Source of the DNA: an uncultured Desulfobacteraceae bacterium
GTDB lineage: Bacteria; Desulfobacterota; Desulfobacteria; Desulfobacterales; UBA5852
Reading direction: 5' to 3'
Length of the DNA stretch: 64,000 bases
NCBI GenBank assembly: GCA_913060875.1
Contig: CAJXSL010000005.1
Coordinates: 124,001 to 188,000, forward strand
The notes under the pieces are model-generated. The model did no database searches. It was given only the letters and a program-made list of their open reading frames with translations, and was not told where the DNA came from. Below, piece by piece: positions 51,320 to 53,196 of the stretch. Made by a program: the position numbers and the translations under genes. The number at the start of each line of letters is the position of its first letter. Position 1 is the stretch's first letter.

Positions 51320-51835
51320 ATGCTCTACAGCAAAACCGTCATGGATCACTTTCGCAATCCACGGAACGTCGGTGTCATCGAGGATGCCAACGGTGTCGGC
51401 GAAGTCGGCAATCCGCTGTGCGGGGATATCATGACCATCTATCTCAAAGTCACGGATGACCGTATTGAGGATATTAAATTTCAGACCTTCGGGTGCGGCT
51501 CGGCCATCGCCGTGTCCAGCATGCTGACGGAAATCGCCATAGGTAAAACCATTGACGAGGCCAAAGCCATTACCAACAAGGATGTGGCGGACGCCCTGGA
51601 AGGCCTTCCCAAGAACAAACTGCACTGCTCCAACCTGGGTGCGGATGCCCTTCAGATGGCCATCAAAAACTATGAAGACGGCGCTGCCGGCATCACCCGC
51701 CCCGAAGAAGGCCACAAGGAGGTCCATGTCCACGAGGAGGGAGGAAAGTGTTACTGCCCCTACTGCGACGTGGAGGTCCAGGAGGGCATCACCTTCTGCG
51801 AGGCCTGTCAGTCCGATCTGGAGGAAGAACATTAG
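51320..51835 (+). CDS. nifU: IscU/NifU-type Fe-S scaffold with C-terminal zinc ribbon
   Basis: 171 aa. Residues 1-122 are the IscU scaffold with the three cluster cysteines C34 (NPLCGD), C59 (FGCGSA) and C103 (LHCSNL) and the exchange-helping D36. Residues 143-165 form a small extra domain, CYCPYC...FCEAC (C144, C146, C149, C160, C163), probably zinc-binding, preceded by a His/Glu linker. AAGGAGGG precedes the ATG. Followed by a NifS homologue, so it is the assembly partner. Confidence 0.9.
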   Translation: MLYSKTVMDHFRNPRNVGVIEDANGVGEVGNPLCGDIMTIYLKVTDDRIEDIKFQTFGCGSAIAVSSMLTEIAIGKTIDEAKAITNKDVADALEGLPKNKLHCSNLGADALQMAIKNYEDGAAGITRPEEGHKEVHVHEEGGKCYCPYCDVEVQEGITFCEACQSDLEEEH

Positions 51836-51983
51836 AAGCTATCTCAAAAAAAGTTTTTTCTCCCGATATCGGCGTTGTGCCCTCGTCTCAAGTCCTCGAC
51901 ATACTACAGTATGCCTGCGGGCTAACTCTCGGCCACGCCTTGATCTCGAACGAAAACCCTAATTTTGAGATGGCTGCTATAAG
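51836..51983. repeat. Palindromic repeat element between nifU and nifS
   Basis: About 148 bp bounded by inverted ends (AGCTATCTCAAAA and ATTTTGAGATGGCT). Interior is centred on CATACTACAGTATG and holds TCGGCGTTGTG and CACGCCTTGA, also found in the 19.8-kb element, so both belong to one broad family. No gene inside. It may attenuate nifS relative to nifU. Confidence 0.65.
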
Positions 51984-52014: not shown

Positions 52015-53196
52015 ATGGGAATCATCAATCTCGACCATATCTCGTCCAACCCGCTGCTGCCCGAGGTCAAGACGGCCATGATCGATGCGATCAATGCCGA
52101 CTATCACAATCCTGCCAGCCAGCACAGCGCCGGAGAAACCGCGGCCGAACAGCTTGATCAGGCCCGCCAGGCCGTGGCGGCCCTGATCAACAGCGCCACC
52201 CCCAAAGAGGTCATTTTCACTTCCGGCGGCACCGAATCCGTGAACCATGCCATCAAGGGCGTGGCCCTGGCCAACGCCAAGAAAGGCAATCACATCATCA
52301 CCTCCAACGTGGAGCACAACGCGGTCATCCGCAGCCTCAAGCGCCTCAAGGGACAGGGCTTCAGGGTGACCTCCCTGGACGTAGACGCCGACGGCCGGGT
52401 GGATCCCGCCGCCGTGGCGGACGCCATCACGGACAAGACCATCCTGGTGTCCATCATGCACAGCAACAACGAGACCGGCACCATCCAGCCCATCGAGGCC
52501 ATCGCCAAGATCACCCGGGAGCGGAAGATCCTTTTTCACACGGACGCCGTGGATTCGGTAGGGGTCGTGCCCGTGGACGTCCAGAAACTGGGGGTCGACC
52601 TGATGAGCTTCGGGTCCAACACCTTCTACGGCCCCACCGGGGTGGGCGGCCTCTATGTGCGGCGCGGTACCCTGATCTGGCCCCTGCTGGAGGGCGGTGT
52701 CCAGGAGCATAACAAACGCGCCGGGGCTGAGAACCTGATCGGTATCATCGGCATGGGAGTTGCCGCGGAGATGGCCCGGCAGGATATGCCCGCACGCCTG
52801 GCCCACCTTGAAAAGCTTAAGCATAAACTACTGTCCGATCTGCCGCGCTATGTGGATGAGACGATTATCAACACCCCTGCCGAGGCCAGTCTGCCCAACC
52901 TGGTCTCGGTGTCGGTGCAGTACATCGAGGGGGAAAGCGTCATGCTCATGCTCGATGACGACAACATCGCCGTGGCCACCCGCTCGGCCTGTGCCACCGG
53001 CTCCCTCAGGGCCTCCCACGTGCTGCTGTCCATCGGCCGGACCCATGCCGATGCCCAGGGGACCCTGGTGATCACCCTCGGGATGGACAACACCGAAGCG
53101 GATATCGACTATTTTCTGGCATCCCTGCAGAAGGTGGTCCAAACCCTGCGGGAGATATCCCCCCTTTACCAGAAGCAAGCCCAAACCGCGGGCTGA
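52015..53196 (+). CDS. nifS: NifS/IscS-family protein lacking the PLP-binding lysine
   Basis: 393 aa, aminotransferase class V fold. Family residues kept: EHNAV (His101), HTDA (Asp177), and the active-site Cys326 in RSACATGS. However, the segment that normally reads SGHKxxGPKG is here FGSNTFYGPTG: the Schiff-base Lys and its preceding His are replaced by Thr203 and Asn202. Gln of HTDAxQ is Asp180, and the usual LDNNATT start is LDHISSN. It should therefore not be a normal cysteine desulfurase. It follows the nifU gene, separated by a repeat element. The IscS of the sulfate reducer Archaeoglobus fulgidus is likewise known to lack this lysine and desulfurase activity. Confidence 0.85.
   Translation: MGIINLDHISSNPLLPEVKTAMIDAINADYHNPASQHSAGETAAEQLDQARQAVAALINSATPKEVIFTSGGTESVNHAIKGVALANAKKGNHIITSNVEHNAVIRSLKRLKGQGFRVTSLDVDADGRVDPAAVADAITDKTILVSIMHSNNETGTIQPIEAIAKITRERKILFHTDAVDSVGVVPVDVQKLGVDLMSFGSNTFYGPTGVGGLYVRRGTLIWPLLEGGVQEHNKRAGAENLIGIIGMGVAAEMARQDMPARLAHLEKLKHKLLSDLPRYVDETIINTPAEASLPNLVSVSVQYIEGESVMLMLDDDNIAVATRSACATGSLRASHVLLSIGRTHADAQGTLVITLGMDNTEADIDYFLASLQKVVQTLREISPLYQKQAQTAG

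Follow-up and report, generated by a model that had tools for sequence, protein, structure and literature searches.

NifS homologues without the PLP lysine, paired with a cysteine-tailed IscU and linked to dsr genes in bacteria: a candidate sulfide-fed iron-sulfur assembly unit

To our knowledge, IscS proteins lacking the lysine that holds PLP are known from two archaea, Methanosarcina acetivorans and Archaeoglobus fulgidus, the latter being a sulfate-reducing anaerobe. According to PMC7585200, the A. fulgidus protein is inactive and its cysteine ligates a [2Fe-2S] cluster on IscU; IscS1 of M. acetivorans, likewise without the catalytic lysine, is proposed there to act in the same manner. A. 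fulgidus IscS (PDB 4eb5, 4eb7, 4hvk; D199K mutant 4r5f) is the nearest comparison for the locus described here. IscS1 of M. acetivorans, set beside it by description, shares the absence of the lysine, but its host is a methanogen. Canonical NifS/IscS proteins with NifU or IscU have the fold, the homology, the loop cysteine and the IscU partner in common with the Lys-less proteins, but keep the Lys, His, Gln and Arg residues that are missing from the latter. Where their scaffold is encoded nearby, it is mostly downstream and untailed, whereas that of the Lys-less proteins is mostly upstream and carries a Cys-rich tail.

Two further systems are relevant. In PMC12192291 and PMC12442378, MIS (MisS-MisU) is a bare IscS-IscU pair, like the one studied here, but is described with a cysteine desulfurase, and SMS, a SufBC-like system, can use sulfide under anoxia. 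No SufB/D core was detected in any of the seven genomes with a Lys-less gene that were searched (7/7), while all 14 controls were positive (14/14). Cluster assembly on E. coli IscU can be fed by sulfide without IscS (PMC13015791). According to PMC6776010, both nifS and nifU rank in the top 20 by transcript level in a lineage that carries dsrAB, and are ascribed there to nitrogenase; the portions seen of PMC8351635 and PMC8593673 make no mention of a Lys-less NifS. Literature on bacterial Lys-less NifS or on iscU-nifS in dsr operons was not present among the matches listed. Three findings, namely the wide bacterial clade of Lys-less proteins, the tailed IscU that accompanies it and its position within dsr operons, appear to be new insofar as they were not seen among these matches.

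The stretch of DNA analysed, 64,000 nucleotides from an uncultured Desulfobacteraceae bacterium, is called the window. The following features were recognized around the gene of interest:

51320..51835, + strand: iscU, 171 aa, NifU_N/IscU scaffold (profile match, alignment)
51749..51808, + strand: zinc-ribbon-like tail of IscU (Cys144, Cys146, Cys149, Cys160, Cys163)
51836..51980, no strand assigned: dispersed repeat separating iscU from nifS; its inverted arms are imperfect
52015..53196, + strand: Lys-less NifS/IscS homologue, 393 aa (ORF translation, profile matches, structure comparison)
52618..52623, + strand: codons 202-203, AAC ACC (Asn-Thr), replacing the PLP-holding His-Lys
52990..52992, + strand: Cys326, the catalytic-loop cysteine, retained
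53068..53070, + strand: Val352, replacing an Arg invariant in the Lys-containing homologues read

From residue 196 onward the window's NifS reads LMSFGSNTFYGPTG, and the site of the PLP-binding His-Lys in desulfurases is SFGSNTFYGPTG here, with Asn202-Thr203 at the His-Lys position. ORF translation and alignment thereby support the first-pass annotation, which had reported these two replacements and also the retention of Cys326, found here within TRSACATG. The protein is a member of the Aminotran_5 family (PF00266, 244.8 bits, cut-off 21.5; Pfam), but scores below the NCBIfam cut-offs of the equivalogs for NifS (TIGR03402, 427.9 bits, cut-off 530.75) and IscS (TIGR02006, 356.9 bits, cut-off 643.2). 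Among the properties expected of a functional desulfurase, the fold and homology and the loop cysteine are present in the window's protein; the PLP lysine and the substrate-binding arginine are absent, and the NifS and IscS cut-offs are not reached. The structural model aligned with 4eb5 at Z 48.0 (1.8 A over 378 residues, 41% identity); E. coli IscS, human NFS1 and 4eb5 were mostly tied at Z 47.9-50.5. Several of the matching NFS1/IscS structures are complexes with IscU, and the model alignments are compatible with docking on IscU without proving it. The Cys loop, residues 324-333, is of low confidence in the model. The parallel to A. fulgidus IscS that had been proposed from the window alone stands up to comparison: this protein has lost the Lys, the His and the same Arg (read as SSND, GTLLLTLG and DATAS), keeps the Cys and has an IscU partner, the latter according to the titles of the structure entries. 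It differs from the bacterial clade by an Asp at the Lys position, which is occupied by Thr, Gln or Pro in the bacterial proteins.

In a sample of 96 genomes from the window's order, the window's own genome included, 28 contained an orthologue; the 27 others showed 61-77% identity to the window's NifS, and the next full-length matches reached at most 45%. A partial match at a contig end in one genome (G050, 64% identity) was left out of this reading, and for the weaker matches of the order the Lys state is taken from two loci only, L060 (Lys present) and L061 (Lys absent). The lysine is absent from all 28 orthologues, being replaced by Thr, Pro, Ser, Ala or Gln, so that a sequencing error at codon 203, the objection foreseen in the first-pass annotation, is ruled out. 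All 28 also retain the SAC motif and are preceded by an IscU with a Cys-rich, zinc-ribbon-like tail; the loss is fixed in this group and co-occurs with the scaffold, a point that the first-pass annotation had proposed to check. As candidates for holding PLP through a different lysine, these orthologues offer Lys81, the only invariant one, and Lys234, which is nearly invariant; the mean column identity is 78%. With 12 of the 28 genes taken for pairwise comparison, dN/dS ranged from 0.04 to 0.29 in the 16 of 66 pairs with dS below 2.2. A pseudogene is ruled out by this purifying selection.

For a wider view, 191 dereplicated homologues were taken from fetched loci after removal of six identical rows; 103 of them are Lys-less and 88 Lys-containing, the Lys-less share being enriched because the collection was gathered by similarity to the window's NifS. 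The losses extend beyond the lysine. An Arg at column 352, which we take to bind the substrate carboxylate, assuming residue roles as in E. coli IscS, is present in 88/88 Lys-containing and 0/103 Lys-less proteins, and both His202 and Gln180 are found in 88/88 versus 2/103. The former Lys position itself varies among Q, P, T, S, A, I and R. Cys326, on the other hand, is retained in 102 of the 103 Lys-less homologues, His101 and Asp177 in all 103 as well as in every Lys-containing protein, and Asn152 in 86/103. The initial observation of a lost lysine thus holds but was too narrow, since His, Gln and Arg appear from the alignment to have been lost along with it as one catalytic set. Desulfurase function is very likely lost in the Lys-less proteins, judging from these residues. 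A separate observation concerns genome G372 (loci L074, L181 and L220), in which an in-frame deletion has removed the Cys loop from a Lys-less NifS (L220:9302-10423 and L074:5001-6122) that still adjoins a normal tailed IscU. This genome offers a natural test of the need for the cysteine.

The window's scaffold protein matches NifU_N with 171 bits (Pfam). Its putative cluster ligands Cys34, Asp36, Cys59, His102 and Cys103 are invariant among 30 aligned sequences, as are the five tail cysteines 144, 146, 149, 160 and 163. The tail has the pattern CYCPYC...CEAC with two CxxC pairs and is modelled with moderate confidence; it may bind zinc. The pairing with a zinc-ribbon IscU put forward in the first-pass annotation is accordingly seen in all 28 orthologues, in the form of a zinc-ribbon-like Cys tail. 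When IscU genes within 500 bp were recorded and a tail was scored as two CxxC pairs in ribbon spacing, tailed IscU was found upstream in 74 and downstream in 10 of the 103 Lys-less cases. In seven more the IscU was downstream and did not show the tail pattern (one CxxC was present in four of them); 12 had no IscU within this distance, some contigs being short. For the Lys-containing cases an IscU was this close in 45/88, downstream in 43 of the 45 and with the tail pattern in none (0/45). In NifU from the window's own genome, the C-terminal part contains other cysteines. In a tree of the scaffolds, which had too few columns, the upstream-tailed group needs two changes, and a single origin of this scaffold is for that reason unsupported. 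Two other arrangements were noted. A second Lys-less group (L182-L187, L190, L192, L194) has the tailed IscU downstream and the loop SGSACISRS, and in some of its genomes (G114, G288, G310) a Lys-containing gene is present as well. Loci L075, L076, L098 and L141, from records titled Scalindua, Anaerolineales, Omnitrophota and Dehalococcoidia, contain a Lys-less NifS without nearby IscU.

The distance between iscU and nifS is 179 bp in the window, while in most relatives the ORFs as called either overlap or lie about 20-60 bp apart. Searching the window's own genome with the repeat at 51836-51980 yielded 56 matching pieces, 16 of which, the window copy included, cover most of the element with at least 85% identity, and the repeat is MITE-like. 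Clustering of 35 neighbourhoods detected no third gene adjoining the pair across families. Within family f124 a YeiH-like gene (Cons_hypoth698) adjoins the pair in 11 of the 15 loci laid out (examples are L209:4573-7213 and L260:10397-13116), and most of these 11 loci also contain a radical-SAM/SPASM gene.

Descent of the Lys-less proteins was examined in two trees. A quick IQ-TREE run used 78 hand-picked rows out of 192 and omitted the active-site columns; in it, one side of a branch with an SH-aLRT of 98 consists of all 49 bacterial Lys-less rows. In an unrooted FastTree with all columns of the 192 rows, one branch of support 1.0 parts all 103 Lys-less rows from the other 89; drawn with midpoint rooting, the same tree places the bacterial Lys-less rows in three groups with supports of 0.34, 0.0 and 0.85. 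The bacterial Lys-less proteins are one supported group spanning several phyla. It comprises Desulfobacterales, other records titled Deltaproteobacteria, and records titled Nitrospirae, Anaerolineales, Dehalococcoidia, Scalindua, Omnitrophota and Abyssobacteria. In the 78-row tree the neighbours of A. fulgidus IscS are archaeal Lys-containing IscS proteins (support 94), and constraining A. fulgidus IscS to the inside of the Lys-less clade gave an AU p of 0.495, which is no rejection. Because the best tree separates the two but the constrained tree fits with this p-value, independent losses of the lysine in A. fulgidus IscS and in the bacterial clade are favoured, short of proof. The initial proposal placed the loss in one different lineage of presumed sulfate reducer; this gives way to a large bacterial group of several phyla.

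A connection to dissimilatory sulfite reduction was apparent from gene content. Among 297 genomes of the phylum, dsrA is present in 37/42 with the clade having the upstream scaffold, in 16/22 with other Lys-less genes and in 91/233 with neither type detected, this last class being defined by no match at E 1e-99 plus three genomes whose matches were not fetched (G180, G183, G228). At the family level dsrA occurs in 16/16 families with the clade versus 35/78 others, totals which assume that all codes f73-f156 lie in the sample. Within family f124, 14/17 genomes with the gene have dsrA versus 1/22 without it, the Lys state having been read in 15 of the 17 (G396 and G399 left out); the association is followed in genera g278 and g162 but not in g225. 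Genome G411 of g278 has dsrA alone. The association is not strict in either direction: five of the 42 genomes with the clade lack dsrA, two of them being 98% complete, and many dsrA-positive genomes of the phylum sample have no detected Lys-less gene. Inside the window's order no significant association was obtained (28/28 versus 59/68, p 0.055), but this test is uninformative because nearly all genomes of the order carry dsrA, and the contrast came from the phylum and family samples. P-values from such comparisons are too small at face value because the genomes are related.

Gene order provides a second connection. In four genomes of two families (G257, G267, G217, G398) iscU-nifS is located immediately before dsrA. 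Three of these (G257, G267, G398) show the order iscU-nifS-dsrA-dsrB-dsrN-(small ORF)-dsrM-dsrK-yedF-like, and the G217 contig breaks off within dsrA. The name dsrA rests on its model; dsrB was assigned from NIR_SIR domains, and dsrN from a cobyrinic-acid diamide synthase match, in both cases together with position. Matches below the respective model cut-offs gave dsrK and the yedF-like gene, and for dsrM there was a weak Nitrate_red_gam match in G267, with similarity used elsewhere. In addition, G400 has the pair within 3 kb of dsrA, and G405 has nifS within 2.5 kb of dsrA, with no IscU ORF labelled. The window's genome contains dsrA, which supports the earlier view of its host as a presumed sulfate reducer, and the link to sulfide suggested at that stage gains substance from the dsrA association and the operons of the other genomes. 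Linkage of the window's own pair to dsr genes is ruled out, since nifS is on contig 5 and dsrA on contig 3.

On another contig of the window's genome, a NifU gene is followed by one for an intact NifS that has the Lys (SAHKFHGPKG). The question of a second, intact desulfurase, raised with the first description of the locus, is thereby answered, and the window's NifS is ruled out as the sole desulfurase of the genome. Because a normal NifS-NifU pair is present, the cell need not depend on the pair in the window. Another strong Aminotran_5 protein was found in 26 of the 28 order genomes, the Lys state of most being unread. In G060 (80% complete) there is no second strong Aminotran_5 match, two of its six others having been looked at. 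Genome G061 (99% complete, dsrA-positive) has six Aminotran_5 matches, one of which is the Lys-less NifS; judged by eye, the sequence starts of the remaining five resemble those of SerC, DegT and class-I aminotransferases, and no other NifS/IscS/SufS-type protein is among the six.

How such a pair might work is suggested by several lines of evidence taken together. Sulfate reducers produce sulfide in bulk. Because of the loss of Lys, His and Arg, the parallel to A. fulgidus, the precedents for sulfide-fed assembly and this bulk sulfide, we consider it somewhat probable that the pair consists of a desulfurase-dead, cluster-holding NifS and a sulfide-fed scaffold. The two proteins would form an iron-sulfur assembly unit in which NifS no longer acts as a cysteine desulfurase. 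IscU would bind iron and take up inorganic sulfide, and the dead NifS dimer would dock on IscU and lend Cys326 as a ligand holding the nascent cluster, as in A. fulgidus IscS-IscU. The Cys tail at the C-terminus of IscU may aid metal or partner binding. The docking and the role of Cys326 as cluster ligand are inferred from these comparisons, and the supply of sulfide to the pair and its dedication to Dsr would follow from the genomic context in the same tentative way. Several observations weigh against this reading: His101 and Asp177 persist, the Cys loop is missing in G372, the clade and dsrA are not strictly associated, 12 of the 103 Lys-less genes lack an IscU within 500 bp, and the window's pair lies apart from dsr in a genome with a normal NifS-NifU pair.

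The retention of Cys326 in nearly all Lys-less homologues would equally suit a persulfide relay, in which the dead NifS takes up sulfane sulfur on this cysteine from another protein and passes it to IscU. Candidate donors are an intact NifS, a rhodanese or a YedF/TusA-like protein; the first is present in the window's genome, and a YedF-like gene, identified below its family cut-off, is the last gene of the dsr operon in G257, G267, G398 and G405. The almost complete genome G061, in which no other NifS/IscS/SufS-type protein was found, and the lack of a third gene adjoining the pair across the families of the 35 neighbourhoods argue against a relay, which we regard as rather unlikely. Less likely still is an enzyme of changed chemistry, holding PMP or PLP without internal aldimine and catalysing a different reaction. 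His101 and Asp177, conserved throughout, and Asn152, conserved in most cases, are in its favour, the first two making a persisting PLP/PMP pocket for another use possible, and A. fulgidus IscS as isolated reportedly carried PMP. However, the Arg taken to bind the substrate carboxylate is always gone, and the drift at the Lys position is unlike that of a new catalytic residue. The missing catalytic residues might also indicate a decaying paralogue without function, but purifying selection, the column identity among the orthologues and the conserved pairing with IscU refute this in the main and leave it very improbable.

A more specific form of the preferred reading, the sulfide-fed scaffold with its cluster-holding NifS, includes the client. 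DsrAB is a siroheme-[4Fe-4S] protein. Sulfide made by DsrAB might be built into clusters on IscU with the dead NifS as a clamp and with DsrAB itself as one of the earliest clients, and this may have entirely replaced cysteine-driven assembly in some genomes, such as G061; we put this forward as a possibility that falls short of being probable. The sulfur source for the iron-sulfur clusters of anaerobes is an open question. Here, the same defective active site as in the two archaea characterizes a group of bacterial proteins that is widespread, conserved and connected with dissimilatory sulfite reduction, and the idea of sulfide-fed assembly becomes testable in bacterial sulfate reducers, with the pair as a concrete candidate for DsrAB maturation. 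Many genes of anaerobes that can be annotated as 'cysteine desulfurase' probably do not encode one.
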